Part shown: in pieces, positions 10,472 through 51,865 of the stretch
How the letters are laid out: each line of letters starts with the position of its first letter
How positions within the stretch are numbered: the first letter of the stretch is position 1
Source of the DNA: Isoetes taiwanensis
Lineage: Eukaryota; Streptophyta; Lycopodiopsida; Isoetales; Isoetaceae
Length of the DNA stretch: 64,000 nt
Direction: 5' to 3'
NCBI GenBank assembly: GCA_021234155.1
Contig: JAJEKV010000010.1
Span: forward strand, 20,732,833 to 20,796,832
The notes under the pieces: model-generated
The model's input: the letters and a program-made list of their open reading frames with translations, nothing else
Told to the model about the DNA's origin: nothing
The model's database searches: none
Program-made: the position numbers and the translations under genes

Positions 10472-10518
10472 CTGGAAGATTTGCTGGATGAGGAGGAGGC
10501 TTCCGTGTTCGATTCCAT
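10472..10518 (-). CDS. Short first exon M-E-S-N-T-E-A (copy A)
   Basis: On the minus strand an ATG at 10518 opens 47 nt coding for a Ser-rich peptide starting M-E-S-N-T-E-A-S, ending in a good donor (CCAG|GTATGT). The same short exon, with the same start and a CCAG|GTTTGC donor, is at 51,282-51,327 in copy B, so it is conserved in both position and frame. No downstream exon could be identified; the array at 8.7-10 kb lies in the direction of transcription. It may be the first exon of a longer transcript or belong to a degenerate gene. Confidence 0.4.
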
Positions 10519-10894
10519 GTGGGTATAGTCGTTCGCAAAGCGTGAATAAGGATTTGTCGGGCTGTAAATTGTATCAGGGATTAATAAGAGCCTCTAACAA
10601 CAGAATATAAGTAAAAATGCAGTAAAGGACTTACAGAAAACTAAAAAGCAGCACTAAAAAGGGCCTCACTTTCTTCTCAGGCAGTAACGCCCGCTCGAAC
10701 ACTCAATCTGCGCGAGAACTTCGGCGCTGGAAGCGTCCCGATCCGTCGACCAAGCTGCTGTCATAAGATGGCCTTGGAATGGCTCGGTTCGATCGATCGC
10801 CTGATCGGAAAAGCGGGCGCTTAAGGAAAATACAGAGCTCGAAGAGTGATCAGAGAAAACAGGGGAGGAAGAATGGTCGGGGGGGAGAGGAAGA

Positions 10895-10920
10895 GGGTGC
10901 AGTTAATTCTGGCTGCACCC
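10895..10920. repeat. Hairpin near the right end of copy A
   Basis: GGGTGCAG and CTGCACCC form a perfect 8-bp stem around a 10-base loop. The same hairpin is at 51,714-51,739 in copy B with a changed loop. The GC-rich segment from about 10,680 to 11,040 is conserved between the copies and then both run into ATGGTT-rich DNA. Confidence 0.6.
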
Positions 10921-11334
10921 TCGAACCTCGTAAAAGTGCAATAATAAACTTCTGTCACGTGTGGGCCATGCCCTCCATGACGTGGCAGTGCGGGTTGCTG
11001 ACATGGCCACGCTTTCAGCCTCTGAGGAGGCGCCACGTGGCCATGACAAGATATGAAAGGTTAGGTTATATGTTTATATATGTTACCTTATATATTTAAT
11101 ATGGTTTCAATGGTTGAATAGTTTCAATGGTTATATATGGTTACAATGTTTACATATGGTTTAGAATGAGTATGGTTGTATGGTTTAATATGGTTATATG
11201 ATTTTAGTTAATATGGTTGTATGATTTAATATGGTTATATTTAATATGTTTGTATGGTTTTATATGGTTCATATGGTCATATTTGTGGTGTTTGGGGCTA
11301 TATGGTTTTAATGTGAGCTTTTTCATTCAGGGAG

Positions 11335-33055: not shown

Positions 33056-34123
33056 TAAGTTGAAGTTGTCTCTAGTGAAGCAGGTACAATAGTAATGCAC
33101 ACATCAAATGCATGTAAAGTTATACTGTGTGATTGAGTAGTTATATGGTGGGGACATAGTAAATAACATCTGTTTGGTGGTAGCAATTTGTTTGAACATA
33201 GCAATTTGCGAGCTTGGTGGTTTATTGTTTGTGAGATTCCATATTGTTTGGCTAAAAGAAGTGACGAAGGTAATAGTTTGAAGTACATGCATTCACACTG
33301 AATAATATGCAATAACATAATTTAATATCCATCAAATTGAATTCCAACTTTGCATTATGTTATAGCTTTCAGAGAACTCAAGCTCTATATTATGCTTAAT
33401 TGAAGAACTTTATCTTGAGTTTAAACACAACCATGATACACATATGTTTACGTAAACCACACAAATATTATATCTCATATAGATAGATAAAACATTTAAA
33501 GTCCACCATAGTAAAGTTCCTAACATATAGAACAACTAAATGTCATATTTTTAGCAATTTAGATGTCGGGTCCCTCAACAACTTTGATTAACTTTGTCAT
33601 ACATCCAAGTCAAACTATATAGAATGCTTTTTTCCTTGGCATTATCTTTGTTTGTTTTAAAAGTCACTAGTGGGGAGACGAGTAGCTTCCCAAAACAACT
33701 TACTTTCAATCCGAATGCTATACAATTGTAGGGACCTCTTTGTAGAATCATGTCAAACTCTTACATAGTCAACACTGTTGCAAATTAAATGGGAGTGTTG
33801 CAGCACTCCCGTTTCGTAGATTCCCTTTTAAAAAACACCATGTTTCTAAAATTGGCCTTTTTTGAAATTTATTGAGAATTTGTAGAGGTTCGGTGTTTTT
33901 TTCCTTTCATTTAGGGCCATCATTGGGCGACAACTTTGTATTTATGGAAAGAAAATTAAAAAAAAAGGCGAAATTTAGGCATGAATTTGAAAAGACTGAA
34001 ATTAAGACAAAAAAAAAACACCAAAATAGGAAGGAGAAAATAATTTTATTTGTCTAATAAAATTCTGTACATCAATATTGGCAATCCATTGTAGTAAATA
34101 ATAATTAATTTAGCATAAAGTAG
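33056..34123. other. AT-rich stretch without a gene
   Basis: No convincing ORF. A 7-bp stem GGGAGTG/CACTCCC sits at 33,791-33,809. The left boundary of large block copy B probably lies in or just before this stretch. Confidence 0.4.
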
Positions 34124-35348
34124 TCAAAGATCTACATCATAGTCCTCATCATTTTTTCTGCTGGTCTCAGCACTATCTTTCTCTGTCGTCTGCTCCTTTG
34201 CTGGAGACTTACCTTTTGCTTCTGCCTTGTCCTCTGGAATGGTAGCCAAAGCTACTTCTTTAAGCTCTGCAAAGGTGGCCTCGTCGTCTAGTGAGCTTGA
34301 GAAAAGAGGTTGTATCTCTGAGGACGTCAGCTTAGCATAATCAGATGAAGACTTGGCCCTTAACTCTTGATTTTCATCTGGTAAAGTAGGTAAGGCAGCC
34401 AATCCTCATCCTCACAAAATTCACAGCCTTCTTATCAATATCCACGGCTACACATTTGCGGCCCTTCTTAAGTGCACAAGCAATGGTAGTACCAGAACAA
34501 AAAAAAGCATCAAGCACCCAATCTCCTGGACGCGAGAACATGTCCAGGAGATGATTGATGAGCTTTTGTGGTTTCTGATAGTGATTTACAATCATGCCTT
34601 GTGCACTTGGGTCCTGCAATTTCTGTAAGTCTAGGATGTTTGAAAAATTTTGGCAGGCGGCAGTGTTGAAGTGCTCCATGGTTCTCTTCCCGTCAAAACT
34701 CCAGTAAGCAACATGAAGGTACTCCACCTTGCTGAGTAACCTTGGTCCTCCACCATGATAATTGATGTTCGTTTTGTACCTAGTAAAGTATTAGAAGTGA
34801 AGTTAGCAAAAACAAGAAAACATCGAAAACTAGAACCAAAGTAATCCTATTCTGGAATATGAAACATAATTGAAGAGGTTAGTAACTGTATTCTGGAATA
34901 AGACTTACCAGACCAGGTTTTCATATCCTGCCTGAACTGGAGAACCGAAGTGGTATTTAAAAGCCAGCCTGCCTGCCTGCCTGCGTGCTAGAATGGAACA
35001 CAACTAGACGCCAATGCTTGGCCGTTGTGATCTGCTTGATGCCATCAATAAATGCATTGAACTCGGAAAATTTGAAGGACTGGTCGTCATAGCTGCTATC
35101 TTTTAGCTTAAAGCCGTAGGGAAGGTCTGTAAGAACCAAAGTAAAGTCATGCGGTTAACAGTTCCGACTAGGTTCGTGCAATCGCCATGAATGATCAAAA
35201 ATAGGTTGTTTTGATCAAACATGCAAAATCTTTCATAGTCGGAAGGTTCTGCATCAACAGTCCTCCTTTTAGCTGACGACCTCTCTTCCCATGCCGTTCT
35301 TACCAAGTGCATGAAGCCCTCGGGAAGGTCTTTGTTCTTTTTCTTGCT
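34124..35348 (-). pseudogene. N6/N4 DNA methyltransferase domain, degenerate
   Basis: Beta-class amino-methyltransferases methylate adenine N6 or cytosine N4 in DNA. On the minus strand an exon beginning after TCTTACAG (35,348) leads to I-I-H-G-D-C (35,190) and then V-L-T-D-L-P-Y-G-F (about 35,135), the catalytic motif IV in a DLPY form. A later exon (34,766-34,390) has the SAM-binding motif G-D-W-V-L-D-A-F-F-C-S-G-T-T and C-V-A-V-D-I-D. Motif IV before motif I is the order of the Pfam N6_N4_Mtase family. A frameshift lies near 35,145 and another near 34,395, after which a K/E/S-rich tail runs to a stop at 34,124. The introns carry TATTCCGGAATA-type palindromes. The Cys in place of the second usual Gly-adjacent residue and the frameshifts suggest loss of activity in this copy. 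Confidence 0.65.
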
Positions 35349-36900
35349 CTGTAAGAGAAAACAAAACTACAACTGTTAACACATCGCAGGTGAAGAGGAA
35401 AGGTATCGAGCGTACTTACCTAGCCCTCAAAATTTGGTGCGTATTGTACAATGTGCTCGTCAGAGGTGGCTATAGGGTAGAGCTCCTTGCACCTGTCCCA
35501 AGTTTCAACAATTAGTTGCTCCATCAAACATGTTTGACATGTTATGACGTTCTTCTGGCTGCAAGACATTAAGGAAACACTGTGTTAGGAAGTAAGTGAA
35601 ACAATACAAGACACAAGGAAAATAATTCGAAATAAAGCGAGTTATATTCTGGAATACAAAACTGATCCATGGTGTTGCAATCTTGAAAAGAAATATGCTG
35701 CCTCTAGGAAATCATTTTGTATTCCGGAATACTGTTTTTATTTGTCGAGTGAGTGAGTGTCTATTCTAAGACACAAATTTTAAGTTTTAAAAGCTTTTTC
35801 TGCTCGAAGACACTATTGCGTATTCCGGAATACACATTGCTCGTCTACAAGAAAGCATGTGTATTCCGGAATACACAGTCTACACCGATGCTACTAGGAC
35901 AACAACAGCCAAATAGCAAAGCTTATCAGAGGACTTAATTGTGCAATTCCTTTGACATTTCTTCGAGGCTGAACTCCTTGTCGACAACTTTTTAGAGCAG
36001 CCGCTCTAGTAGTTCGGTATCAGAGAAGCCCTGCATTTCCCTCCAGATGGTAATAGTCATTTCTTTTTTAGGCATGTCTGAGGTTTTCTTCTTGGCTGTC
36101 TCCTTGCCTTTGCTCTTCAACTCCCCGAGTTCGAACATAATAAATATTTCGTCCTGGAGTTCCCATATCTGTTCAAGAAAATTTTACGTCACCTAGCGGA
36201 CAAGTAAACCTAGACACAAAAAAATCTAAACAAAACATTAGCACGACTTGTTATTCCGGAATACGTTATGTGTACCTTGCCATCTCGGAAAGCCAATTGG
36301 AACTAGTTGTCGTGGCCAATGAGTGACTGCCTTTTGATAGCTTCGTCATATTTCAGGCAGCATTCAATGGCGCACGCTTCCTTAAGCTCCAAGAATACGC
36401 TGGCTTCTTCAGGTCCTCACTGTATTTTTCCTTAAAATTAACGTATTCCCTATGCATAAACCTGATCTTATCGACAAAGCTCATCTTCAATTTGTACTCG
36501 TTGTCAGCATTGTGGGTGTTGGCAACGATGTTTGCTTCTTCATCGGTAAGACCACAGTAAACAGCACACAGGACGGAGAGGTACCTTGGGTTCTTCTTCT
36601 CTTTGTAGAGTTTCCTTCTTGCCTTGAAGCTCTGATACTACCTCCCAAGACACAGTGTGTAAGTCGTATTTAATTAAAGTGGGTCTCATTCTATTCCCAC
36701 TTTTTTTTCGGAACTCTGTTATTTTACACAAAAAGTAGAGCTCCGACTCGAAAACTGTCCATAATTCGAATATTTGTCTCTTAGTGTGGGTTCGAGCTTT
36801 CTCCCCGTTTTCTCGGATAGCGAGTCGAGAACAAGAACAATACAACTCAAACAAAGGAAATTCATTAAAGATCAAAGATTCAGTAAAGAGGAAGTTCTAG
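35349..36900 (-). pseudogene. Second ParB-like segment upstream of the methyltransferase
   Basis: Several minus-strand exons are readable. One (about 36,640-36,290) contains G-L-T-D-E-E-A-N-I-V-A-N-T-H-N-A-D-N-E-Y followed by S-F-V-D-K-I-R-F-M-H-R-E-Y, a pattern like the helical region behind a ParB/DGQHR core and comparable to E-L-A-S-I-S-H-C-Q-N in the first ParB-like gene; it has a frameshift and a stop and ends at AAG|GTACAC. The next (36,172-35,945) has F-S-D-T-E-L-L-E-R-L-L then a TAA and F-S-L-E-E-M-S-K-E. A third (35,563-35,420) starts after TCTTGCAG. Introns contain TATTCCGGAATA palindromes at 35,719, 35,820, 35,858 and 36,251. Order ParB-like then methylase mirrors known phage fusions. 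Confidence 0.45.
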
Positions 36901-37268
36901 TTGAAAAAGAATTTTTATTAATAAATTGAATAGGTACAATGTATTTTACATCGGACGCAGAGACCCATGGGGGATTCACACAGAAGACCCGTATAAACCT
37001 AGTGAGTGCATGGAAGGGGGTTTTTTCTCGACGTTTTCGTACGTATACTAGGGGTTTAAATCCTCCTCTTACTGACATTCTAGTGTGTTTTTTCCACGGA
37101 AGGGGTTTTTTCCAACACTTTTGCGTACGTATATAGGGGTGTTTCTTCTCATCTTAAGCACGCAGGTGGCATATGCTCATGTGATAAAGGTGAACCCCCC
37201 GTGCAGAGACCATGGCGGTCTTGCTGTCACTACAGTTACATCATCGTGGTAGGTGGTCCACCTTAGGG

Positions 37269-37703
37269 GATTAACTTGCGGGGCTTCTTCATGCCGTCTG
37301 TAAGCCTTGGGGGCAACCTGAAGAGCGTGGAATGCCTCACGAGGAGGTGCCTCGGGAGCCACCGGCTGACCTTCCACCCGACTTCTCCACTCTCCTCTCG
37401 CAGCTTTTCATCGAATATGCTCCTTCCCCAACCTCCGTGGATGTTATGCAATGCTTGCAAGATGCTTTGAGCTTTCTGGACTGTCTCAAATTTCTTCCCC
37501 TCTTCTTTATCCCGAGCGTGTGCATGGCGTCTGCATTCACGAGCAACCTTATCCCAAAGGCCGAGTAAGAGTGTAGCGTGAGCGGGATCTGTGCCAGAAT
37601 GGTATCTCTTCCGCCTTGAGCGGGATCTATGCCGCCTTGAGTGGTCTCTGTGATGCCTGAACGGGATCTGTGCTGCTGCGGGATCAGTGCCTGAACCACC
37701 TGG
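37269..37703 (-). CDS. RS-rich exon of the copy B block
   Basis: After a CTTGCTCCAG acceptor the minus strand reads an arginine/serine/histidine-rich segment (H-R-D-H-S-R-R-H-R-S-R-S-R-R-K-R) made of imperfect 15-20-bp DNA repeats of the GGGATCTGTGCC type, then a helical segment with K-F-E-T-V-Q-K-A-Q-S-I-L-Q and G-W-G-R-S-I-F-D-E-K-L-R-E-E. A stop occurs at about 37,267. The basic RS-like run could be a nuclear or RNA-binding linker. No family was recognised. It lies between the phosphatase-like and second ParB-like segments. Confidence 0.4.
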
Positions 37704-37799
37704 AGCAAGGAGAGTCTATGGTATCATTAGTCAAAATGAAGAAAAGAATGGTGAATTCAAAGTACAATGGAGAACATTCATTCCATATAACTGCATCCA

Positions 37800-38045
37800 A
37801 ACACGTGGCAAGTAGTGCCTTTAGTCGAGAAAGGCCCGGAAAAGTCAAAGTACAACCATTCTCAACGAGACGTCAACGAGACAAGCAGTGCCTTTCTCGA
37901 CTCGCGAGTCGAGAAAGGCCCAGGAAACCCAATGTACAACCATTATCATTACAGAATATGGCCACATCCAGTCACACAAACAAACATACAAATGGTTTCA
38001 TCAATAGGACAAGCATGCCTTTCTCGACTCGCGAGTCGAGAAAGC
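37800..38045. repeat. 127-bp tandem repeat with palindromes
   Basis: Two and a partial third copies of a unit of about 127 bp. Full copies of the palindrome TCTCGACTCGCGAGTCGAGA are at 37,893-37,916 and 38,020-38,043, and a decayed one at 37,818-37,835. Words such as TCAATGTACAA and TTCATTACA follow each palindrome. The repeat lies in the inferred intron between the HAD-domain exon and the RS-rich exon. Confidence 0.65.
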
Positions 38046-38146
38046 CAGCGAAAACTCAATGTACAAGTATATTCATTACAAAATATAGTACATTTCTTCA
38101 CGTTTCTTTACAAGATTCACACAATTCGACTATCTGAAAACAGAGG

Positions 38147-38976
38147 TCACTCTTCTTGTTCACCAAAATATTTGTCGTCCATAGCTTTCATGATCGCGCT
38201 GCTCTCTGGATCGACCTCCTTGAGGTTCAGATAGTTCCTAATCACATCGGCCACAAGTATGGCAAACAGGGATTCCGCCAAGACAGGAACGAGATTGAAA
38301 TACAACCACCTATCCGTTTCATACACTTCTGGTCGATAACTCTTGGCAATGGTTGTATTGTGCGAGTTATGATAGCTCTTGTAGGCGGAGTCGTCTATGA
38401 TCAGCGTGGTGTGTTTGTTGAAGTCCTGGTATGCTTCATAAACCCTGTCCAGCCTTTTCACCATAATAGGCTTCCCCTTTATGATGGCTGGATTGAGGCC
38501 TGACACATGCTCGACCCTTTCGTTTCCCCAAACAAACTTGAACATCAAAACTGGAAGGCCGAGAAGACCAAGGACATTGATAATATTTTTCTTTGCCATA
38601 CAAGACCATATGGCCACTTGGAATCCCCGTTCCACGCACCACTCAATAATCTCCTTTGCTTTAGGTCGAGGATACACGATTTTAGACCCCGTTGTTGTCG
38701 GGATCTGTGAGGTTAAGAAGCTCAGGGACTCCATTGACATCAAATATTATAAGCTTGGTGGGACCCGCTGGATCCCAGTTAGAGTTTGGCTCTGACCAGA
38801 TTTCTGATTGATCGGGATCCATATGCAGGATCATTATTTTTTCAGGTCCTTTCTTGTTGCCCGCACTGTTTTGCTCTTGACTGCCTTTCTTGGATCCAGT
38901 ATCCTCCACGTGATGTGAACTGCCAGCAGATTCGTGTGATATTGTCAATGATCCCGATTCGTTGCGATCGATGTCC
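38147..38976 (-). pseudogene. FCP1/NIF-type HAD phosphatase domain
   Basis: This family dephosphorylates Ser/Thr, classically on the RNA polymerase II C-terminal domain. The exon begins after ATCATTCCAG at 38,976, passes a polar linker and reads L-I-I-F-D-V-N-G-V-P-E-L-L (motif I, near 38,750), V-A-I-W-S-C-M-A-K-K-N-I (motif II), M-V-K-R-L-D-R-V (motif III Lys) and T-L-I-I-D-D-S-A-Y-K (motif IV), then Y-R-P-E-V-Y-E-T-D. The canonical D-x-D-G-T is D-V-N-G-V: the nucleophile Asp is kept but the second, acid/base Asp is Asn. A one-base shift near 38,690 separates motif I from the rest. The frame ends at 38,147, possibly spliced on. Likely inactive or binding-only. Confidence 0.65.
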
Positions 38977-39099
38977 CTGGAATGATGAAAGACGTCAGAT
39001 AGGAAACGTTTTCTCGACTCACGAGTCGAGAAAAGAAAAAGCTAAAGACTCGGAGGGTTTCTCGACTCGAGAAACACTCCGAGAGCAAAGTGAACTCAC
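38977..39099 (-). other. 123-bp intron with palindromes
   Basis: Minus-strand intron with GTGAGT donor (39,099) and TTCCAG acceptor (38,977). It contains TCTCGACTCACGAGTCGAGA at 39,011-39,032 and the shorter TTTCTCGACTCGAGAAA at 39,058-39,074. Palindromes therefore fill a large part of a very short intron. Confidence 0.65.
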
Positions 39100-40020
39100 C
39101 TCAATCTCAGACTCTCCAGAATTAGTTCGGCAGCATTGTCGTCTAAACCTTGGACATTCTCGTCTCCGTCACCTTTCTCTCCCTGGCTGTCAGGTTTGTC
39201 TTCGTCATCATCATCCTTACTGCTTCCATTTGTCTTCCTCCCTTTGAAATGCTCATGAAGCAGGTCCAAGTATGACCGAATGGTTTCAACCATGTCCTTA
39301 TTTCCAACCACGGATATTGGTTTCATTCCATACAGCATAGCCCCCTGAGAGAACAGGCCATTCATGTACCACTCGCATACAATATGATCTTCCACGACCA
39401 AGCTGGTTATGAAGTACTTGATAACTCTTGGCTAGATAGGAATTCTATGTATTGGACCTGTCGCACCATCAGTGCTGACTTTGTCCATCGATGGCACATC
39501 CTCCATAAATTTGCCGCCCTTCCAGGGTTCTATCTGCTCTTGAGAAATCATGAACTTGTCGAGATAGTGGTGTTCGCTAGACCACCACTTGTCCAGGTCT
39601 GCAGCCGATCTTGAAACCAAAACCAAAACTACATTGGCAAAACTTGGTGCCTTCGGCAGGCCAAGTCTACACTCATGTTCCAGTTCGTATATGGAATACA
39701 AGATCTTGTTGATGAAGTTAATATCGGTACCCCATTGTGACACAAATTTATTGTCGATTGCCCGCATACAAAAGATAAAAGAAACCGAAAGTATCCAGCT
39801 TCGGTCATGTCGGACCGTCTTGTACCACCGCTCAATGTCGGCTTTTTCATAAAATAGGGTGGGGTCTTGATCATATTCATGGCAAATAGTGCCCACGGGC
39901 CCAAAGTGCCAGTTCGGACCACCAAACCCCTTGTGTCCCAAGGTTACCGGAATGGAGGGAGCTATCATCCGTCTTAAATGGGACCACCCGAATCCAAGCT
40001 TCCTCTTCCAAATTGCCATA
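39100..40020 (-). CDS. Exons of unknown function (copy B block)
   Basis: Two minus-strand frames. The first (40,019-39,432) encodes up to 195 aa with W-K-R-K-L-G-F-G-W, W-H-F-G-P-V-G, Y-K-T-V-R-H-D-R-S-W and L-V-S-R-S-A-A-D-L-D-K-W-W. The second (39,401-39,100) has M-V-E-T-I-R-S-Y-L-D-L-L followed by a D/E-rich linker and ends at GATTGAG|GTGAGT. They are separated by a stop and change of frame near 39,420. I do not recognise the fold. Position places them between the first ParB-like domain and the phosphatase-like domain, so they may be a middle domain of one long protein. Confidence 0.4.
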
Positions 40021-40213
40021 GCACGTTCGGGGAAGGGAGGGTTTTGTTCTCACGGGGTTTCGACTCGCGGAAGTCGAAAGCCCCGCATCTTCTAGGAAAT
40101 CGGAAGATCGCGGGGGCTTTCGACTTCAACAACTCGAAAACCCTAGAAATCACGAGGTTGCGGGGCTTTCGACTTCGCGAAATCGAGAAACCCCGAATCG
40201 AGCGATAATTTAC
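40021..40213 (-). other. Intron with decayed palindromes
   Basis: Starts at a CATAAG|GTAAAT donor identical in place to that in copy A. It carries three or four decayed palindromes of the GGGGTTTCGACTTCGCGAAGTC type flanked by runs of G and C, at about 40,058-40,088, 40,115-40,140 and 40,163-40,197. The acceptor was not fixed. Confidence 0.45.
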
Positions 40214-40293
40214 CTTATGTAGCTGGCACTTGCTGCTATTGTGTTCTGGCAGTGGCTAATGCTGGCGAGCTCCGTTGGTGGCGTGTCTGCTGA
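40214..40293 (-). pseudogene. ParB-like exon, 3' end beyond the gypsy element (copy B)
   Basis: Continues the ParB-like exon that starts on the other side of the Ty3/gypsy insertion. It reads E-L-A-S-I-S-H-C-Q-N and A-S-Y-V before a CATAAG|GTAAAT donor, as in copy A at 1,472. The insertion splits the codon region immediately after V-L-S-A. Confidence 0.55.
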
Positions 40294-40657
40294 TGTTGGA
40301 GTGATCACCACTCACCACACTCATCACCACACTCGTCACCACTCACCACACTTGTCACCACTCACCACACTTGTCACCACTCACCACACTCATCATATAC
40401 CATATATAGAGTGATATACGCGCATGCACGCGTGCAGGATATTTGCACGCATGCATTGAGGAGGCAGGATCATCACAGTATTATCTGAGCAGAGAGAGGA
40501 GAACAGAGAGACGGTGTATTGAGAGTGAGGATTTTTGCTTTGATCTAGCTATGGAGATGATGATTCTTTGTCTTGTGCATTGCCTTGATCTGATAGATTG
40601 AGCTTGGATTGTTGGGTTTTTCGTCCTTCTTGCAAGGTTAGAGTTCAGGCTCTAACA
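40294..40657 (+). repeat. 5' LTR (364 bp)
   Basis: TGTTGGAGTGATC...CTCTAACA. It is 50 bp longer than the 3' LTR because it holds extra copies of a CACCACTCACCACACTTGT-type minisatellite near its left end (40,307-40,392). ATATATAGAGTG near 40,403 is a candidate TATA region. The remainder differs from the 3' LTR at about six positions, all transitions. Confidence 0.93.
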
Positions 40658-40680
40658 ATTTGGCGACCACGGTGCTCGAC
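40658..40680 (+). promoter_or_regulatory. Primer binding site candidate
   Basis: TTTGGCGACCACGGTGC starts two bases after the 5' LTR, at the position and with the TGG start expected of a tRNA primer binding site. The tRNA was not identified. Confidence 0.6.
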
Positions 40681-41107
40681 AGACCATTAATCGGCAAGAA
40701 TTTCCATTGAAAAAGGAGTTGTTACCATTGGTATTGGTGATCGTCGGTAAAGAACGGCACCATTGAGAAAGGAGCAATTTCTTGTGTGAAGGGATTTTGC
40801 CGTAATTGATTTGTGGGGTAGAATTTGACAAGGGGAGCATAGTTTTATGCCCAAGAGAAGTAAGAAGGATATCCCACCAAGCTCTATCGTAACAAGAAGG
40901 GGACCGGTGAATCAATCTTTGGGCTCAAAATTGCATCAAGATTCAATTTCGTTTTCAGACTTGGGAGCAGATCTGGGGTCTAATTCTCAGATCCAGGAGG
41001 TTTTGATTCCATTTACTGATCTAGAAGGTAATCCAATTTCGTTTTTCAAATTGAAGGGAGATTGAATTTCGTTTTTCCAATTTCAAGAAACCCAAGAAGA
41101 GGCAGAG

Positions 41108-42307
41108 ATGGCTGTATTACCACCTATGGTATGGGGTTTTCAGACAATGGGCATTCCAAAGTTTGATGATCTGGTGGATCGGGATCCTTTGAAGCATATT
41201 GTGAAGTTTGAGAGGTATTGCCAGCAATGTAAGTTACCTGCTGCTGATTACTTGCTTTGGTTTCATAGTTCTTTGCAAGATTCAGTGGAGGAATGGGCAC
41301 AAACCCAGCCAGATACCATGACATATCAGGAATTAAAGGAAGCTTTCATTGCTAATTATCAAGAAGTCCATGGTAAGGATAAGACTATGGAAAGGTGGAC
41401 CAATTTCACACAAAAGGAAGATGAATCAATTAGAGAGTATAATCAGAGGTACATTGCGGTTCTCAAAGCCGTGGTTCATTGGAAGATTGCAAGGAGTGAT
41501 GAAATGGATATCCAATGGTATGTGAAGGGGCTGAAACGAGCTATTGCTCATAAGGTGAAGGCTAAACAGCCTACAACATTGCTAGAGGCACAAAAATATG
41601 CTCTCAAGGCTGAAGATAAGTTGGGATACATTCATGAAGTTGCTGCTCTAGAGCATAAAACAGAGGATGTTGCAGCCAAGATTTCTAAGCTTACAATTGG
41701 TGAGGAGTCAAGGGAGGTGCAGTTTATTACTTGTGAGTATTGTGGGTCTATTGGACATTCTGATGCTACATGTAGATTGCTGAAATTCTGCTCAAGATGC
41801 CAAATCAAAGGCCATAATAATCAAGAATGTAGGGAGAGGAGAATCTTTGAGAGGGCCAATCCGGTATTTGCTGTTATGCAACAAGCACCATCTATTCCTA
41901 TTCAACCAATGCAGGTAGCACCTATCATACCACAAGTTCCAATGATGCCACAACCTCCAATTGCCCAACAAGTTCCAATGGGTTCCACACCAATGGTGCA
42001 GCCAAAACAGGGATGGTATCCAAGTAAGGCTCATTTATATTGCAAGTTATGTGATAAATTCAAGCATGATGAGACTACTTGTTGGAAAATCCATGGGAAA
42101 CCAGAATGGGCAACCAACAAGTATCCACCAAAGCAGCAAGTGTTTGAATCAGTACCTCTTCCTAATAATGATGTTCGCATTCAAGATGCAAAGTACATTG
42201 ATAATCCTCAAGTTAAGGCTCTTATTGAGGAGCTTAAGAAGCAAGAGAAGGCAAAATCAGTAGTAAATTGTGGATTTGTTGAGGTGGAGCATGACCCATT
42301 TCAGTAA
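41108..42307 (+). CDS. Gag polyprotein
   Basis: Forms the virus-like particle that packages element RNA. The 399-aa frame starts at an ATG in good context. A retrotransposon gag domain occupies roughly residues 25-140 (W-F-H-S-S-L-Q-D-S, E-W-A-Q-T, T-N-F-T-Q-K-E-D-E-S-I-R-E-Y). Three CCHC knuckles of C-x2-C-x4-H-x4-C type lie near 41,732, 41,790 and 42,041; three is more than the usual one or two. A P/Q/M-rich spacer separates the second and third. It ends at TAA (42,305), beyond which the same frame continues into pol-like sequence. Confidence 0.88.
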   Translation: MAVLPPMVWGFQTMGIPKFDDLVDRDPLKHIVKFERYCQQCKLPAADYLLWFHSSLQDSVEEWAQTQPDTMTYQELKEAFIANYQEVHGKDKTMERWTNFTQKEDESIREYNQRYIAVLKAVVHWKIARSDEMDIQWYVKGLKRAIAHKVKAKQPTTLLEAQKYALKAEDKLGYIHEVAALEHKTEDVAAKISKLTIGEESREVQFITCEYCGSIGHSDATCRLLKFCSRCQIKGHNNQECRERRIFERANPVFAVMQQAPSIPIQPMQVAPIIPQVPMMPQPPIAQQVPMGSTPMVQPKQGWYPSKAHLYCKLCDKFKHDETTCWKIHGKPEWATNKYPPKQQVFESVPLPNNDVRIQDAKYIDNPQVKALIEELKKQEKAKSVVNCGFVEVEHDPFQ

Positions 42308-44809
42308 GAAGAAGAGATTGGAGAAGTAAATGCAGTTACAAGATCACAAAGGGTGGTTCAAGAACCAAGAGTAGTGCCAATTGCGGAGAAGACTAAGACC
42401 TCTTTTCCAAAGGCTTTGAAGGAACAAGCTTTGAAGGTATCAGCACCTAAGAAGGTGCAATTTAATGTGCTGCCCACAGAACAATTTCAGTCTATAGAAG
42501 AAAATCAGCCCATAGTGATGCCTCCTATGGTGGATGAGGAAATTCAAAATGAAGATGATGTGATCAGCCAAGTTTTGGCCACGAAAGTTACACTTACTCT
42601 TGAGCAATTGATGCATTATTCTCCAAATTTGTTGCAAGAGTTAGGGGGAAGAACAAAATCAGAAATTTCAGTCCAACAAATCATATCAAATGATACCGAC
42701 AAGAGGAGAATGGAGCCACCAGCCCGGTAATCCAAGGATCCTGGGCCATTTCTTTGTGATGTGAGTATTAATGGATATCTAATCAAAGAGGCCAACATAG
42801 ATACCGGCAGTGGAGTGAATGTAATGCCTTACCACATAATGCTTCAAGTTGGGTTGAAAATGATGGAACCGACAACTATGATGCTCAAAGCATTCAATCA
42901 AATGAAGGTGCAGCCTATGGGAGTGATAAGAAATGTTTTATGCAAGGTTTATGAGGTGGAAGCAATCTTGGATTTCATGGTTTTGAAATTTCCAGAGAGT
43001 GTGCATGCTGAAACTTATACTTTGTTGCTGAGTCGTACATGGTTAGATGCCGTACAAGCTGAGACTTCATGGAGGAAGCGTGAAATGAACATCTTTCAAG
43101 GGGAACACAAGGTTACTATAGATCATCCTCTGAAATCAGCAAAAGGTACCTTTCTTTGCAATCCTTCTTTGAGCAGCCCGCAGTTAGAAATCAGCAAAGA
43201 GAATGCTATGGTGTCAGGGCAGCAAGGTCTTAGTTGTTTTCATGTCTTGGAAGTGGGTGACAGGGAAGATAAGACTTTGTACAAGTGGTTAAAAGATACC
43301 CAAATTTCAGAAATATGTCATTTACAGCAGCAAGTTGCAGATAAGTATCTCCAAAGACTTGAAAGTATTGGTGAAGCTGAGTTACAAGAGATTCTTGTGA
43401 ACATGCAGGAAGAGTCCATTCAAAGACCCATTGGGGAGAGTTTATTTCAGCAAGAAATTGATCAAGATCAAGTAGAGATGCTGATTTTGACATCAAGCAT
43501 GGATGGGGTAAACAGAAATCAGCCCACTATACAAGGACAAGCAGCTTGGTACATTCTGGCGGATGAGGTAAATCAGATCAGTCCATATTCACCACAGTCA
43601 TCACAATCACCACATACACCAAATTCATCACAATCATCACATCCACCACATCCATTACAGTCACCACAGTCATCACACGTACCACATTCATCACTGTCAC
43701 CACATTCACCACAATCACCACATTCACCACATTCGTCACCACACTCACCACCTTCATTACATTCACCACATTCGTCACCACACTCACCACCTTCATTACA
43801 GTCACCACATTCAGTCAAGAACATCAATATTTCTCAAGGAAATCAAGAAGAATTGGTTACTATTGGAGGCGATCTTACTCAAGAGGAGGAACGTGACTTG
43901 ATATCTTTGTTAAGAGAATTCAGGGATGTTTTGGCAAGAAATTACAAAGAATTGAAAGGCATTCCAACAGAGGTTGTGGTTCATACCATTGATTTGAAAC
44001 AAGGATCAAAACCAGTCCAACAAGCTCAAAGGAGAATGAGTCCAGCAATAAAGGAGCAAGTAAAAGTTGAAGTCATGAAGCTTTTGGAGGCCGGATTTAT
44101 TGTACCAGTGCCAAATTCAGATAGGATCAGTTCTATTGTACCAGTGAGAAAGCCAAATAACTCAATCCAAGTATGCATTGATTACAGGGATCTCAATAAA
44201 GCTACCAAAAGAGATCATTTTCCTACACCATTCATAGACACTTTATTGGACATTGTTGCAGGAAATCAGGCCTATTCTTTCTTGGATGGGTACTCAGGAT
44301 ATAATCAGATCCAAATCTATCCACCACATCAAGCAATGACGGCTTTTCGAACACCTTTTGGCATCTATGCTTACAAGGTCTTACCTTTTGGCCTTACAAA
44401 TGCTCCAGCCACATTTCAGCGAGCTATGACATATGCTTTTCATGATATTTTAGACTTTTTGAGAGTCTTTATAGATGATTTAACAGTGTTTTCGAATCCA
44501 AGAAGGGATCACTTGGATCACCTCAGAAAAGTTCTTGAAAGATGCCGATTGTATGGCATAAGTTTGAATCCTGCTAAGTGTATTTTCTTCACTAAAGGAG
44601 GAAAACTATTGGGCAATTATGTTTCAGAAAAGGGATTACAAGTGGATCACGGTAAGATTGCAGCCTTGGAGAAGGTCAAACCACCTACAAATGTATCACA
44701 AGTGAGAAGCTTATATGGCCAACTCAGTTTTAGTAGGAGGTATTTGCACAATTTTGCTAAAGTAACCCAACCAACTTGTGGATTGTATGAAGCCAGGGCA
44801 GAATTTTAG
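42308..44809 (+). pseudogene. Pol: protease and reverse transcriptase
   Basis: Same reading frame as gag, broken by TAA at 42,305 and 42,728. Protease: D-T-G-S-G-V-N-V-M at about 42,800. Then a linker with a long S/P/H-rich tract (43,580-43,810) encoded by CACCACATTCATCACA-type repeats. RT: V-C-I-D-Y-R-D-L-N-K-A, D-G-Y-S-G-Y-N-Q-I, L-P-F-G-L-T-N-A-P-A-T-F-Q and the catalytic F-I-D-D (44,468-44,479), then G-K-L-L-G-N-Y-V-S. The frame stops at 44,807 because of one extra T in a T run. Confidence 0.85.
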
Positions 44810-46635
44810 ATGGAAGGAGGATGCTCAAGAAGCATTTGAATGGTGCCTTGGACAATTGAAAGAGAGAACTTTGCTGATTCCTCCAAGAATGAGTGAGCCA
44901 TTTCATTTATTCTTTACAGTTTGGGAGCAAGCTTTGGCTGTCACACTATGTCAGAAAAATCAGCAAAAGCATTATGATGTGAATTACTATGCTAGCAGAT
45001 TGTTAACTCCACAAGAGCAGAAATGGACTCATGTGGAGCATCTTGGGTTGGCATTGAGTGGGCCTTGAACAAATTTAGACATTATCTTCTTCCTTCACAA
45101 TGGAATTCAGCAAATGTACAGTATGTTTACATTCATATGGATGTGAACCCATTGCCATGCATTTACAATAAGACCGTTCAAGATCCTAAGTTTACAAGAT
45201 GGGCTCTTATCATACAAGAATTTGAGTTGAAGTATGTTAAGATGGCTCAAGGAGCTCATAATCCAAGTGCCTATTTGAGTAGTGGTGCTGAAATAGAAGA
45301 GGAAACAGACCAGCCAGTAGCAGTTCCGGATAATGGCGTATTACAAGGGTTCATTGAAACCGTGGATCTTTGGTATGCCAATATATACAGGTATTTACAA
45401 GATCAGACTTATCCCTCATCATTTTCAAAGCAACAAAAGCATGCTCTTAGAGTACAAGCAGCTGGTTATGTGGTGCATGAAGCTATTCTTTATAAGAGGA
45501 CTATGGAAGGTCTCTTATTAAGATGTGTTGCTGGTCAACAAACTCATGATTTGTTGCAGCAAACACATGATTGTCAAGGGCATTTTTGCAGCCAGAACCA
45601 CAGCTAGGAAGATCCTTCATTGGGGATATTATTGGCCAACTCTTTACAAGGATACTAGAGACTTCGTTAGCAAATGTGAGAAGTGTCAAAGGCATAAACA
45701 ATTAACAGGCCACAATAATATGCCATTCCATCCTATTTTGAGCGTTGGCCCGTTTCATATGTGGGGATTGGATTACATTGGGCCTATCAATCCTCCATCT
45801 TCTAAAGGTCATAAGTATATCTTGGCAGCCACATGTACGTTTACAAAGTGGGTAGAAGCAATTCCAGCAAAGCATGCTACAGAAAATACCACAGTAAGCT
45901 TTCTTTATCATCATTTGATTTCACGGTTTGGTGTTCCAACCATTCTTTTGTCGGATCGGGGAACTCATTTCATGGGGAAAGTAGTAGCTCAGTTAACAGA
46001 AAAGATTGGTGTTCAACATGTGCAAGCTTCTGCTTCCACAGGGAAATGGGCAAGCTGAGTCTACTAACAAAATTCTGAAAGCTATCTTGGCCAAAACAGT
46101 GAAGGATAATCAAAGAAATTGGCATGAAGCCTTGACAGGTGCCTTATGGAGTTTCAGGTGTACTTACAAGTTGGCTACAGGATTTACACCATTTGAATTG
46201 GTTTATGGAGTGCAAGCTGTCATGCCTATTCATTTGGACATTCCTTTGTGTTCCTTTGTGGAGCTACCTTATTATGAGAATTTGGGAGAAGTTCCAATTC
46301 CAAATCAAGTGCATAATAGGATGGATGATTTGCTGCAATTGCAAGAGATGAGACAAGAAGCAGCAGACTTCAATATGAGGCATAAACAGAAAGTAAAGCT
46401 TATCAAAGACAAGTTACAGGTTGTCAATCCATTTGAGGAAGGGCAATTGGTGTTGTGCAGGACCACTAAGCAGCATCTATCCAAATTTCAAAGCCCATGG
46501 GAAGGCCCATTTCTGATTGATAAAGAGGTACCAGGTGGGGCTTTCTACTTGATGACTCCAGAAGGGGAATTGTTGCCTAATCCCAGAAATGGCAAGGATC
46601 TCAGGCCTTATTTTGAAAGAGAAGTGCTATTCTAA
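44810..46635 (+). pseudogene. Pol: RNase H and integrase
   Basis: RNase H-like sequence continues at 44,810-45,300 with one frame change near 45,055 (T-H-V-E-H-L then L-N-K-F-R-H-Y-L-L). Integrase follows: zinc-binding H-D-C-Q-G-H-F and C-E-K-C-Q-R-H-K, split by an extra T near 45,587; core Asp in G-L-D-Y-I-G (about 45,770) and L-S-D-R-G-T-H-F (45,952), and Glu in G-N-G-Q-A-E-S-T (46,050), with a further frameshift near 46,035. The C-terminus ends R-P-Y-F-E-R-E-V-L-F. No chromodomain is visible. Confidence 0.85.
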
Positions 46636-47029
46636 GGGATTCAGATTTGGTATAGCTCCAATTACAGAGAATTTGTGGAGAACTTTTGGGTTACAGCAGG
46701 TCATTTTTCTGTAAAAACAGATGGTGACAGTTCCATAATACACAATCTATCCTACATCAAAAGATGTATTTCGGCGATACGAATCCAACTAGCTATGGTG
46801 CAGGTCAAACGGAGGTCTGGAACTCAAGATATCAGCTTTCAAAGTTTGCCACAGTTACAGAGGCTCTGTTTCGTCACTGTCATTTTGGACCAGGTTGTTT
46901 GTATTAGTCATTTGGATTTGAGGAGGGTGTAAATGTGTCATTTGGGGACATGTCCCAAGGACCATATGAGTACTTTTTGTTGTGGGTTCTCCGCCACGGC
47001 GTGGCATATTTTCCCACTGTGGTCGCCAC
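46636..47029 (+). other. Gypsy 3' untranslated region
   Basis: About 390 bp between the pol stop and 3' LTR. A purine tract GAGGAGGGTG at 46,920-46,929 could be the polypurine tract but is 100 bp from the LTR instead of adjacent to it. Small palindromes GGGGACATGTCCC (46,945) and CCACGGCGTGG (46,993) follow. Confidence 0.5.
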
Positions 47030-47343
47030 TGTTGGGGTGATCACCACTCACCACACTTGTCACCACTCACCACACTCATCATATACCGTATATAGAGTGA
47101 TATACGTGCATGCACGCGTGCAGGATATTTGCACGTATGCATTGAGGAGGCAGGATCATCACAGTATTATCTGAGCAGAGAGAGGAGAACAGAGAGACGG
47201 TGTATTGAGAGTGAGGATTTTTGCTTTGATCTAGCTATGGAGATGATGATTCTTTGTCTTGTGCATTGCCTTGATCTGATAGATTGAGCTTGGACTGTTG
47301 GGTTTTTCATCCTTCTTGCAAGGTTAGAGTTCAGGCTCTAACA
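47030..47343 (+). repeat. 3' LTR (314 bp)
   Basis: TGTTGGGGTGATC...CTCTAACA, followed directly by the GCTGA target duplication. Shorter minisatellite than the 5' LTR. Confidence 0.93.
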
Positions 47344-48577
47344 GCTGAAAGAACTCTGCACTCTCGTTTGGAATATCTGTCCTTGATCCTTTGCGGCACT
47401 TCCTTTTCCGTCTGTAATACTTTTGCTGCCCTCACTGAATGCTGGCCGTCCACAACCCAAAACCTAACGTCTTTTCCGTTCAGCTCTTCCTCAGACTTCC
47501 AGCTGAACAACTCACCGGTCGATCTGCTGAATGGTATGACAACCGCAGGCATTGGATCTGCAACAGGATGCCGCACCATCAAGTTCAGAATCTCCAGCAT
47601 GTGTGCTGGATTAAATTCCCTGTGGTTGAACAAGACGGCATCTCCTGTGCAAACCTTCAGGCGTCTGATGTCCAGCAGCAGCTTGTGTGATATCCCCAAT
47701 GGATAATACTGAGCCAGCCGCTCCATTTTCTGGGCCCCTCTCTATGATTTCCTAATCTGCTCATCTGGATCCAAGAATTGGGAGTCGACCATATCTTCCT
47801 CATCTTCAGTATCTGAATCCTCCCGTGTACTCTCATCTGCTTCATCTGCAGTCTTGTCCAGAGTTTTTTCAGGGTTCTGAACTACAACATCCTTGGTAAC
47901 TGCCGAGTGCTTTAGAGTCTTTAGCACGCTGGACGTAAAGCTCCCGGTGTTGAACAGCTTCTCCCTCATCCTGGAAATCTCCATTCCAAGCTCCTTGGAT
48001 GTCAGGGTTTCGGCCTCCTTCATCCCTTCCAGATCCTTCCACCCAAGGTTCTGACAATTTAAAGGCACCGGCCTTTTGTCGGTCCTCTTCGACTTGCTCA
48101 TTGAAGAGTGAGAGTAATTAGATAATGATAACTTCTTCGTGTGGTAGAACTTACCCTTCAGGCAGTCTTCCACATACAATGTAAGATGCTTTGAATCTGG
48201 CGCAGAGACGGAGAGCACAACACCGACCTTCTTGTACTTGTCGCCGGAGCTCTTCTTATCCATTTGCCACAGAAACAGATCTTTCTCCTTCCCACTTGTT
48301 GATACTTCGACATACCACCAACAATCTGCTGGTGTATCAAGTAGCTCTGTCTCCAATCCCTCGATAACGAAGAACGGAGTTCGGCCAGTGATCACTAGCA
48401 TCTCCACAGTGAATGCTGCGAGACAGAAGGATGGATCAGTAAATGTATCCTGACCGAACACAAAACTGAAAGCTCACCTGGAGTCATGGTCTTTCTTTTC
48501 TTGGTGCCGCTTGAACCAGCTTCCGCTCCGGTGCCTCGCTTCGTCGATGGAGTCGCCCTATCTGTATGCCCCCGCAT
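47344..48577 (-). pseudogene. ParB/DGQHR-like gene, 5' exons (copy B)
   Basis: Exon 1 (48,577-48,478) starts M-R-G-H-T-D and has a K-K-R-K basic patch. Exon 2 (48,415-48,155) joins in phase (G|CA) and contains G-R-T-P-F-F-V-I-E-G and D-C-W-W-Y-V-E-V, ending AAGG|GTAAGT. Exon 3 runs from about 48,110 to the gypsy insertion: a K/E-rich helical part, an acidic run (E-D-S-D-T-E-D-E-E-D), one frameshift near 47,740, then L-F-N-H-R-E-F-N-P-A-H-M, P-A-V-V-I-P-F and F-W-V-V-D-G-Q-H-S-V-R-A-A. The G-Q-H loop followed by a helix is characteristic of ParB/Srx/DGQHR folds, which bind or cut DNA or hydrolyse CTP. The last conserved Arg is Ser here. The gypsy element and the frameshift inactivate it. Confidence 0.55.
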
Positions 48578-48875
48578 CTTCTTGCTGCTCGAATTCCCTT
48601 GTAAATTGAGCCTCTTCCATGCCTTGGAGGTTTTAGGACTACACGTAAAAAAGGTCGGGCGTGTTCTTAAATTTGAAATTAAGGACACACAATCATTCAA
48701 GGAAAAAAAGCGGGCTAAGGGTACAGCACGGCCAGCTTTAGCCCGCCCAAACACCAATTCTAAATTCATTCATTTCCGGGGGACTTAATGGCGCGGATGG
48801 AGATTTTAGAGCTTAGTTGGCGAAATGAGCACAAATGACCCGGGAGGCGGAGATCGATTGCTCGCGAGTTCACGG
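48578..48875. promoter_or_regulatory. Divergent intergenic region (copy B)
   Basis: About 300 bp between opposite ATGs of the ParB-like gene and the small gene, alignable to 7,791-8,080. An AGCGGGCTAAGG...CTTTAGCCCGC inverted repeat lies at 48,707-48,748 and is shared with copy A. Confidence 0.4.
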
Positions 48876-49348
48876 ATGGCGCCACGACGCTGTAAGCTCC
48901 TAACAGCGCCTTACTCTGTCTATTTCTAACTGCATGTCTTTTTGCAAATAGTTGATTTGATCGATGTGCACGGGGCTAAGGTAGCAAGCGGATATGAGCT
49001 ACAAGACACGGGAACACTTCACTGCAGCGCCATGGAAGAGGGATACGCGAGAATCGCTTTGATACAAGTATTTGATGGGGATGCATTGTTGATGAGGCCA
49101 ACAGAAGAAGCAAAGACTCTCGTTGAGGCTGCGGGATCTGTGATACAATGGCCCAAGGAGTTCTTGCGAGAAGAGGTGAGTTTCAGAGATTCCTGTTTCA
49201 TTATGTGTGTAGAACATGCCAGATGTGTATAGAATATGGAACTGCTCGAAAGCTCGACGGATTTATTGTTTCCTTGTCCAACATATTTCAGCGTCGAGAG
49301 ATGAAATATACTCTCTGGGTTGAGAGATGCTGGGCACGGAAACAATAG
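48876..49348 (+). CDS. Small three-exon gene, DUF8039-like domain (copy B)
   Basis: Exons 48,876-48,891 (donor GTAAGC), 48,952-49,175 (acceptor GCAAATAG, donor GTGAGT) and 49,292-49,348 (acceptor TATTTCAG, TAG stop) join without phase breaks to give about 98 aa. The middle exon has V-D-L-I-D-V-H-G-A-K-V-A-S-G, D-A-L-L-M-R-P-T-E-E and A-G-S-V-I-Q-W-P-K-E-F-L. Exon 2 has exactly the same length (224 nt) as in copy A and no stop in either copy, in contrast to the decayed ParB-like gene beside it. A related domain seems to start the DUF7869 gene at 11.3 kb. Role unknown; a DNA-binding or regulatory accessory of the block is a guess. Confidence 0.55.
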
Positions 49349-49604
49349 ATCAGAGTAACACGCGAACAACTCCCTGTTTTGATCATGGAACTGTTCGACA
49401 GCTCGCCCGATTTATGGTTTCCTTGTTGAGCATATTTCAGCGTCGAGATACTCTCTAGGTTGAGAGATGCTCAGCAAGGGAACTATAAATAGGACCAACT
49501 AGCGAACAGTTTCATATGTCTGTATTTTTGCTTGGAATGCCTTCCATTCTGTTTAGAAGCATCAGTCCGAGTATCTATTAGGCATGCTAGTTGTGTATAG
49601 ATAA

Positions 49605-50880
49605 TGCTAGGTCTAGGTCCTTAGGGATGCAGTTCCAATGCATCCCCCTGTGGTTAGTCCCAGAGGCCTCCACCCAGTCCGGGCCACTCCCCTTCGCAAT
49701 ATTCGAGGAAGATGGTTCGAAGGAGAGTGGCTCAGACAGGCTAGAGGCACCTAAGACTAAACCTAGGACTAGAGGCACAGGAGAATTGGATGGCTAAGGG
49801 ATTCTCGACTTGCGAGTCGAGAATCCCAGTGTTGGCTTGATGCCTGCATTCTCGACTTCTCGACTTGCGAGTCGAGAATCCCAGTGTTGGCTTGATGCGC
49901 ATTCTCCCTTCGCAAATCGAGAATCCGATGTTAACCCGATGCACGCATTCTCGACTTCGCAAGTCGAGAATGCCTTAACCAGCGAAAACTCCGGTGGTAC
50001 TCACGGGTCTTTGGGTTAAAACTTCAGCAGTCGAGAATGCGGGCAACAAGCCAACCTATGGCATTATCAAGTCTTGATGAGAATAAACTTGTTGGGTGGT
50101 GAGGCCTTAAGGATGCATTTCCACGCGGTTGGTTAGTGAGGCCTCCACCCGGTCAGAACCCCACCTCTTCGCCATATTCGGGGAAGATGGTTCGAAGGAG
50201 AGTGGCTCGGTAGGTCGAGACCTACGACCGGACCGCAGAATAATTGGTGGCTAAAGAGTTCGACTTGCGGTCGAGAATGCGAAAAACATGTCGAAAGCCC
50301 CACGTGGTTTGACCAGAGGCTGCTGGCAGATCGAGGGCCACTTCCGCCATAATACCGAGGAAGATAATTTGAAGGAGAGTGGCTAAGGCTGTCTGGGAGC
50401 ACACAGGACAAACCTGGGGGAATAATGCCTTGGGATTCCTTCGACTAAGCGGGTCTTCACCGACTCCGCGAGTGAGAAAGGCGGCCATTCTACGTCTACG
50501 GTTAGTCGTTGAGGCCTCCCACCCGGTCCGGACCGGTCCCGCCGCAATATTCAACGAAGATGGTTGAAAGTGCTTCAATTTGAATGGAAGACCTTACCTT
50601 GACCGATTTCTGACCATTGGTACGTGTATGACATTCACCGACTTCATGAGTCGAGAATGCACAAAAACATTAGGCGGCATTCGAGGGACTAGAAAAGGCG
50701 TTGGTGTTCAATGCGCATTCTCGACTCGTGATTGGATTGCCTCAACCAACCAACAATCCGGGTGTACACTCCCTGTTCTCGACTTCCTTGAGTCGAGAAG
50801 AAACTTTAACCACTTCTGGATTGTTGTAGCGAGAGGCATTCTCAACTTCGAGTCGAAAGCCGAGTGTAATCTGCACCTTT
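49605..50880. repeat. Foldback-unit and palindrome array (copy B)
   Basis: Units matching those of copy A at 49,665-49,748, 50,141-50,220, about 50,317-50,395 (decayed) and 50,513-50,575 (partial). Palindromes of the ATTCTCGACTTGCGAGTCGA type lie at 49,801-49,826, 49,857-49,882, 49,947-49,971 and more decayed ones to 50,870. A GGATGCAGTTCCAATGCATCC-like hairpin precedes the first unit (49,626). Copy B is more eroded and has fewer units than copy A. Confidence 0.7.
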
Positions 50881-51281
50881 CTTTTGCAAGGGGGAGGATA
50901 TTACGTGAGTTAGAAAGATTTACATTTCTTTGTAAAAGCAAATCCTGTTCTTAGATCATAGTTAAAAACATTCATTCATAGTTAAGTTCTGTTATGAAAC
51001 ATTCATAGAAAGTTTTGCAATTTCTGTTGTGAATCATTCATAGTAATGTTCTGTTACTGTTTTGTAGTTTTTTTCTTCCTATCACCTGTCTTTGAGGATT
51101 CCTAGTTCGGTTGCTTGCCACTAGTCTTACTTATGCCTGTACAAGGTATTCAATTAAACAAAAACTAAGAAGAAGAAAACAAAAACAGAAAACAAAATAA
51201 AAGCAAAACAGAAAACAGTGAAAATATGTGAAATAGAGTGAAACAGTGGAGACAAAAGAGAACATATTAAAAAAGCAAACC

Positions 51282-51327
51282 TGGTAGATTTGTTGGATGC
51301 AGAGGAAGCTCCCGTGTTTGATTCCAT
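51282..51327 (-). CDS. Short first exon M-E-S-N-T-G-A (copy B)
   Basis: Minus-strand ATG at 51,327, a short Ser-rich coding stretch and a CCAG|GTTTGC donor; matches the exon at 10,472-10,518. The partner exon is unknown. Confidence 0.4.
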
Positions 51328-51713
51328 GTTTGAACAGGCGTTTGCAAAGCGAGAATAGGGATTTGTCGGGCTGGAAATTGAAACAGGGGATAGTAAGAAC
51401 CTCTGATAAAAGAATATAAGTAAGAATGCAGTAAAGGACTTACAGAAAACTAAAAAGAAGAAATAAAAAAAGCTATAAACTTACAGAGAAGAACCTCACT
51501 TTCTTCTTAGGCAGTAACGCCCGCTCGAACACTCAAACTGCGCAAAAACCTTGGCGCTAGATGCGTCCCGATCCGTCGACCAGGCTGCTGTCATAAGAAG
51601 ACGTCGGAATTGAGAGATTGGAAGGATCGCCAAGGGCGGAGCTCCAGAGAAGGAATGAAAAAATAGAACAGAGAAAGAATGAATGGATGAATGGGTCGCG
51701 GGGGAAGAGGAAG

Positions 51714-51739
51714 AGGGTGCAGTTATTTCGGGCTGCACC
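51714..51739. repeat. Hairpin near the right end of copy B
   Basis: GGGTGCAG/CTGCACCC stem as at 10,895-10,920. The conserved block ends about 125 bp further on, followed by TTAATGGTTTTAATGGTT repeats. Confidence 0.6.
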
Positions 51740-51865
51740 CTCGAACCTCGATAAAGTGCCATTATGACACCCTGTCACATGTGGGCCATGCGGTCCGTGA
51801 CCTGGGTGTCCGGATTGCTGACGTGGCAATGTCAGCAGTCGCTGACGAGGCGCCATGTGGGCCAT

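Follow-up and report, generated by a model that had tools for sequence, protein, structure and literature searches.

How does a plant genome come to carry, one after another on a single strand, a ParB-like domain, a phosphatase-like HAD domain of FCP1 type, a second ParB-like segment and an N6/N4 DNA methyltransferase? The question is raised by a 64,000-nucleotide stretch of Isoetes taiwanensis (contig JAJEKV010000010.1, positions 20,732,833 to 20,796,832), referred to below as the window, in which an earlier note had placed these modules in a duplicated block and considered one linked protein, a self-marking mobile element, or a domesticated prokaryotic module. We find that the stretch contains two nested DNA transposons, a copy of element A being inserted within the ParB-like exon of element B. 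Both elements belong to dispersed families, and each family carries noncoding arrays of a palindrome peculiar to it.

The evidence comes from copies elsewhere in the 1.66-Gb assembly (1,110 contigs). Matches to the methyltransferase family PF01555 number at least 150, all 150 that were scored (of 1,443 first-look candidates) exceeding the curated cut-off, and there are at least 121 matches to exons of the second gene of element A, found by scoring 71 of the 8,868 first-look candidates. For family B, we took 20 of the 150 methyltransferase loci (10 kb each), chosen for a stop-free matched exon, so that the sample leans towards intact copies; for family A, four loci (L029 to L032), with flanks for three. 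An all-against-all comparison of the B loci reveals a common unit, sharply bounded on its right in most of them. Both ends were found in four of the 20 B loci (L013, L015, L023 and L027; 7,475–8,189 bp) and in two of the four A loci (L029, 12,404 bp; L032, 11,883 bp), with one end each in L030 and L031. The terminal inverted repeat (TIR) of B is AACAAGATTGCGTATTAAACGGGAG on the left (at most two mismatches) with its inverted counterpart on the right, and all four complete copies are flanked by identical 4-bp target-site duplications (TSDs; CTAA, TAAG, ATAA and ATAT). The TIR of A is AAGTCGTATTTAATTAAAGTGGGAC, and matching 4-bp TSDs (AGAA and ATAC) flank both complete copies. Complete copies of both families contain a DUF7869 transposase gene, divergent from a second, intron-bearing gene (gene A or gene B). 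The predicted fold of the DUF7869 product matches retroviral integrases and transposases (RNase H-like, DDE-type), and Foldseek with the transposase core returned one match at E <= 0.001 among 449. With their TIRs, TSDs and DDE-type transposases, A and B are cut-and-paste DNA transposons of two related families; the TIRs, TSDs and dispersed copies rule out a host gene family.

A 4-bp TSD is a trait also of Sola and other superfamilies. Membership of Zisupton was rejected, since Zisupton makes 8-bp TSDs (PMC12730594) and the TSDs here are of 4 bp. Proteins with DUF7869 were also found in Riccia, Ceratopteris, Adiantum, Branchiostoma, Strongylocentrotus and Cymbomonas, with 28–83% identity to the B core among 57 aligned. 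A third, diverged DUF7869-type transposase lies in the window itself at 58309–60802 on the minus strand, in a region with no recurring palindrome of 10 bases or more. In the locus that continues the window (L039), a NIF-like sequence (31% identity, 6e-7) lies about 9–10 kb beyond this transposase and is followed by another A-type transposase-like open reading frame (ORF).

Within the window, the insertion of A into B is marked by an exact A TIR ending the second of two A copies (none expected, from 100 shuffles), past which the sequence is gene B, inside its ParB-like exon, as alignment to other B copies shows down to 33771. The 11-base TIR pattern at that B end is by itself not significant (two matches against 0.81 expected). 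The two A TIRs place one end of copy 1 at 14445, its other end lying beyond the window start, and the end of copy 2 at 36661. Neither tblastn nor alignment to complete copies found, within the window, the left part of B or the end of A copy 2 that would carry the transposase. The ParB exon of gene A in copy 2 is in turn split by a long terminal repeat (LTR) retrotransposon whose empty site is seen in copy 1. A thus jumped into B, and the LTR element into A, and the gene order of the window results from the nested insertion. In-frame stops, frameshifts and inserts make pseudogenes of the gene copies in the window. Self-comparison pairs pieces of 1466–11156 with 40208–51965, both running the same way (79.8% in the longest piece), so the duplicated block of the earlier note is real, but it consists of two copies of element A, covers the DGQHS/NIF element only and leaves the methyltransferase outside. 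That the modules are consecutive and on the same strand would suit one domesticated host protein, or an operon-like block, joining ParB, FCP1-like and methyltransferase modules; yet a TIR separates the two sets, none of the 20 B loci contains gene A parts at E <= 1e-3, and each family has many dispersed copies. We find such a union barely credible: the modules belong to two transposon families, and the single linked protein is rejected. Nor does the dispersal of both families support a host-domesticated module.

Gene B codes for an N-terminal region, a ParB-like domain (VLGGNHSFKARR), a helical region and the methyltransferase. Its introns have GT-AG ends in the copies inspected, and in L022 the first four exon blocks are whole and stop-free while the fifth is cut short. 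The joined exons of L021 score 71.0 bits against PF01555 (curated cut-off 26.7), and the exon with motif IV is directly observed to be read before that with motif I, as the earlier note had proposed. By profile and motif order, the enzyme is a beta-class N6-adenine/N4-cytosine DNA methyltransferase of predicted activity, and the closest solved structure by sequence is CcrM (2e-8). Its motifs recur across the B loci: HGDC in 19/20, DAFSGSGTT in 19/20, HYQKPQ in 20/20, DLPYG or DIPYG in 17/19 and GGNHSFKARR in 12/15. We estimated the ratio of nonsynonymous to synonymous substitutions (dN/dS) as Nei-Gojobori medians over stop-free copies, dropping pairs with synonymous saturation, dS <= 0.02 or fewer than 50 shared codons. 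The ratio is 0.042 for the ParB-helical part (5 copies, 10/10 pairs kept), 0.043 for the segment E2 (14 copies, 64/91), 0.076 for the motif IV exon (11 copies, 19/55) and 0.028 for the motif I part (18 copies, 119/153); in copies picked as stop-free, the methyltransferase is kept under purifying selection.

A protein search with gene B minus its ParB-like N-terminal part returned four among 4,487 candidates (one from a fern and three unnamed methyltransferases), and the only named relative found is a fern protein from Adiantum nelumboides, which matches at 6.8e-26 with 45% over 19% of the query. Among 50,697 phage records there are 444 that match; in the 20 listed, the match covers the methyltransferase part alone, at no more than 27.1% identity. 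In viral contigs, seven pattern matches were scanned and none was confirmed.

Gene A comprises an N-terminal region, the DGQHS ParB-like domain, a domain that we call A2/A3 and a NIF/FCP1-like domain. The assignment of the last to the FCP1-type HAD family holds, two scores (26.4 and 24.9 bits) exceeding the PF03031 cut-off of 21.8. The catalytic signature of FCP1/NIF enzymes is DxDx(T/V), and the three A copies read (L029, L031 and L032) have DVNGV or DINGV instead, which makes phosphatase activity uncertain. The A2/A3 domain might be a degenerate methyltransferase: its C-terminal part lines up by eye, but hhalign to the B methyltransferase gives E 0.29. A protein search with gene A residues 200–970 found nothing at E <= 1e-3 among 7,993 scored candidates, and a PDB search with an A3 profile gave two chance matches only.

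The ParB naming of both domains is tentative. The VVDGQHS segment described on the minus strand is present (47334–47741); it matches a PHROG named as a ParB-like partition protein (6.4e-4), whereas its Pfam matches are all below threshold (DUF6371, 0.0093; DUF6551, 0.045). The domain of gene B matches an unnamed PHROG (5.8e-4) and, in L023, DUF6551 below the cut-off (0.0026). The helical segment that the earlier note took for a second ParB-like one follows this domain. The two domains do not align significantly with each other by hhalign (E 0.063 over 16 columns), and no ParB appears among PDB sequence matches up to E 10.

The palindrome of family B is GTATTCCGGAATAC (extended form AAAGTGTATTCCGGAATACACTTT) and that of family A is TTCTCGACTCGCGAGTCGAGAA; allowing at most two mismatches for B and four for A, neither family carries the other's. 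At these thresholds, the four complete B copies hold 6, 10, 15 and 21 sites, with none in their flanks (1.8–2.5 kb each), and the complete A copies hold 7 and 12, with none in theirs (2.6 and 3.1 kb). The 20 B loci together contain 243 sites; 200 Markov simulations of a single locus gave 0.025 on average and 1 at most. The four A loci and the window have 54 sites with at most five mismatches. In the seven B copies examined, every site is either within gene B or no more than 1.5 kb upstream of it. Among spacings of less than 150 bp in B, 108 of 188 are 41 or 42 bp; with those of 38–45 bp removed, the remaining 66 favour a period of 10.5 bp (R 0.36, nominal p ~2e-4, the copies being related). 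The centre of the B palindrome is CCGG in 90, CTGG in 28 and CCAG in 25 of at least 174 sites from the 20 loci, and the changes from CCGG to CTGG or CCAG (53 of at least 174) are such as the decay of methylated CpG would give.

A near-constant 42-bp unit whose number varies among copies resembles tandem duplication, and the arrays of A are not phased; the palindromes might then be structural or slippage products without a protein-binding role, and the second gene a passenger with an unrelated activity. This is distinctly improbable, given that each family has a separate palindrome, that none of 61 sites in four loci falls in gene B exons, and that the palindrome is conserved but the spacer poorly so (at most 0.6 bit outside the palindrome, mostly 0.1–0.3). 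Conservation at the 14 core positions follows from the search criterion; that of the extension does not.

We propose instead that these are transposon families whose ParB-like part binds the palindromes, with B methylating its own element as an anti-silencing measure, a reading from sequence to which we give an even chance. The ParB-like part would bind its family's palindromes as a dimer, which their dyad form would suit (42 bp is about four helical turns), and would tether an effector to the DNA of its element. The effector of B would methylate the element and keep it expressed despite silencing by the host; that of A, the FCP1-like domain, may act on transcription instead, so that tether plus effector would be the theme common to both. 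A fuller version has a parS-like array read by the element's own ParB-like protein, which would place N6-methyladenine (6mA) or N4-methylcytosine (4mC) against silencing, with a sister family using a phosphatase-like effector; we put it forward as possible, at rather less than even. Among the suggestions of the earlier note, that of a self-marking mobile element is the best supported: the element itself is borne out by TIRs, TSDs, the DDE-type fold and a methyltransferase conserved in complete copies; we infer the binding, the methylation in cis and the anti-silencing effect.

Palindromes and ParB-like protein might alternatively serve transposition itself, through transpososome assembly or through timing by methylation, in the way that Dam acts on some bacterial transposons. 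Transposons with a second gene for a DNA-binding accessory protein are common, and both families have a ParB-like domain and palindromes, a methyltransferase being detectable only in B. The sites, however, are internal rather than subterminal in all seven B copies, and the methyltransferase motifs are under strong constraint; we regard this alternative as unlikely. Very improbable, in our view, is an addiction or restriction-modification-like system made of a ParB-like nickase and a protecting methyltransferase: the bacterial ParB-methylase Bce_0392 is reported to nick DNA (PMC5512222), but Pfam scans matched no nuclease family and family A has no recognisable methyltransferase.

Several observations weigh against tethered self-methylation. 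The ParB-like assignment rests on weak profile matches (1e-4 to 1e-2), the corresponding region of L022 has no Pfam match at all, and the AlphaFold2 model of the gene B domain is of low confidence (predicted local distance difference test score 46), with no useful PDB match and none of 79 Foldseek matches at E <= 0.001. The palindromes could be bound by the transposase. The 27 spacings in A have no 10.5-bp phasing (R 0.12), and the copies share ancestry, so that site and spacing counts are not independent. Canonical motif IV is (D/N/S)PP(Y/F/W), and gene B has DLPY or DIPY in 17 of 19 copies. The choice of stop-free B loci biases motif counts and dN/dS towards intact copies, and the N-terminal region (0.169; 5 copies, 3/10 pairs kept) and acidic tail (0.173; 16 copies, 113/120) of gene B give higher ratios than its other parts. 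Ratios in gene A are higher: 0.44 for the ParB-like domain (3 pairs), 0.22 for A2/A3 (6) and 0.36 for NIF (6). Finally, Pfam, PHROG and hhalign detect no methyltransferase in family A, so methylation cannot be the function common to both families.

Table 1. Coordinates of transposon parts, genes and palindromes in the window
Feature	Position	Strand	Remarks
Element A, copy 1	1..14445	-	Extends beyond window start; ~5-kb insertion at 1657-6670, within its ParB exon; main pieces 85-90% to L029/L032
DUF7869-type transposase gene, element A copy 1	11208..14246	+	tblastn 1e-14; divergent from gene A; corresponding ORFs in L029/L031
Left TIR, element A copy 1	14423..14445		TIR match
Element B remnant (right part), pseudogene	33771..36660	-	End of ParB-like domain, helical region, N6/N4 methyltransferase exons; aligns to complete copies L023/L027
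Right TIR, element B	33771..33795	-	Alignment to end of the L027 copy stops at 33771
Methyltransferase exon with motif I	34377..34790	-	PF01555 4e-15
Methyltransferase exon with motif IV (DLPYG)	34960..35366	-	Frameshifted in window; open in most of 20 related loci
Family-B palindromes GTATTCCGGAATAC	35719..36265	.	35719, 35820, ~35861, one with mismatch near 36251; introns of gene B
Helical segment after gene B ParB-like domain	36356..36637	-	tblastn 93% to ParB-like exon of other B copies
Element A, copy 2	36661..51974	-	Aligns to complete copies L029/L032; carries gene A and inserted LTR retrotransposon
Right TIR, element A copy 2	36661..36683	+	Exact TIR match; insertion mark in ParB-like exon of element B
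Family-A palindromes TTCTCGACTCGCGAGTCGAGAA	37890..38044	.	Also 1242, 1304, 1363, 1425, 9972
NIF/FCP1-like HAD exon of gene A	38150..38746	-	PF03031 6.2e-6
A2/A3 domain of gene A	39099..40049	-	Parts scanned without Pfam or PHROG match
Distal ParB exon part of gene A, severed by LTR element	40208..40293	-	91% to 1466-1551 of copy 1
LTR retrotransposon, Ty3-like (by eye)	40294..47343	+	In ParB exon of gene A; 5-bp TSD GCTGA; LTRs 98.35% over 303 bp
First exons of gene A, N-terminal region and ParB-like VVDGQHS domain	47344..48577	-	PHROG ParB-like match (see text); one open exon in L032

Elsewhere in the window, a reverse transcriptase ORF (24018–26066, plus strand), Penelope-like by eye, lies between 2.4-kb direct repeats of 99.5% identity, at 19533–28657. 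A long ORF at 29309–30700 (plus strand) has by eye the look of a U-box/ARM plant gene, another reverse-transcriptase-like ORF, of non-LTR type by eye, occupies 54836–55726 (plus strand), and a long simple repeat at 61804–62265 gives poly-Glu and poly-Arg frames.

Whether transposons protect themselves through marks on their own DNA is under active discussion; the known cases are the cytosine methyltransferases of retroelements, the TET/JBP enzymes of fungal transposons and VANC in Arabidopsis. The presence of 6mA and 4mC in plant genomes is disputed, and our proposal, if true, would supply a specific and testable source of one or the other: a cut-and-paste plant transposon with a bacterial-type DNA methyltransferase and matched palindromic sites, so that enzyme and target could be tested together. 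The widespread DUF7869 family also gains a likely role, that of transposase.

A search of the open-licence literature found no such element, which does not prove its absence. As far as the papers cited here show, known systems supply the separate parts rather than the combination of ParB-like domain, methyltransferase and palindromes. Bacillus cereus Bce_0392, compared by description, has a ParB domain fused to an adenine methylase, a fusion that gene B would resemble, but is prokaryotic, whereas the gene in the plant is interrupted by introns and lies within a transposon (PMC5512222). Retrotransposons with C5 DNA methyltransferases (DNMTs) and DIRS elements with Dam-like enzymes are likewise mobile elements coding for a DNA methyltransferase (PMC5890265); here the element is a cut-and-paste transposon and the enzyme is of the beta class, joined to a ParB-like domain. 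Fungal TET/JBP DNA transposons (KDZ, Plavaka and others) code for a DNA-modifying enzyme thought to aid escape from silencing, a dioxygenase instead of a methyltransferase, and neither DUF7869 nor ParB appears in the accessible part of that account (PMC12730594). The DUF7869 proteins of other organisms have the transposase domain in common with A and B, and were compared as proteins. The closest analogue of the proposed mechanism is VANDAL/VANC, of the Mutator superfamily in Arabidopsis, in which the transposable element codes for a further protein, and VANC is reported to bind noncoding motif arrays (PMC5735166; PMC10398659). As here, these motif arrays are family-specific, lie in introns and upstream, and vary in number between copies. 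The Isoetes elements differ in having another transposase domain, a 4-bp TSD, a palindromic motif of about 22–26 bp and a second protein with a ParB-like domain and a methyltransferase (or NIF).

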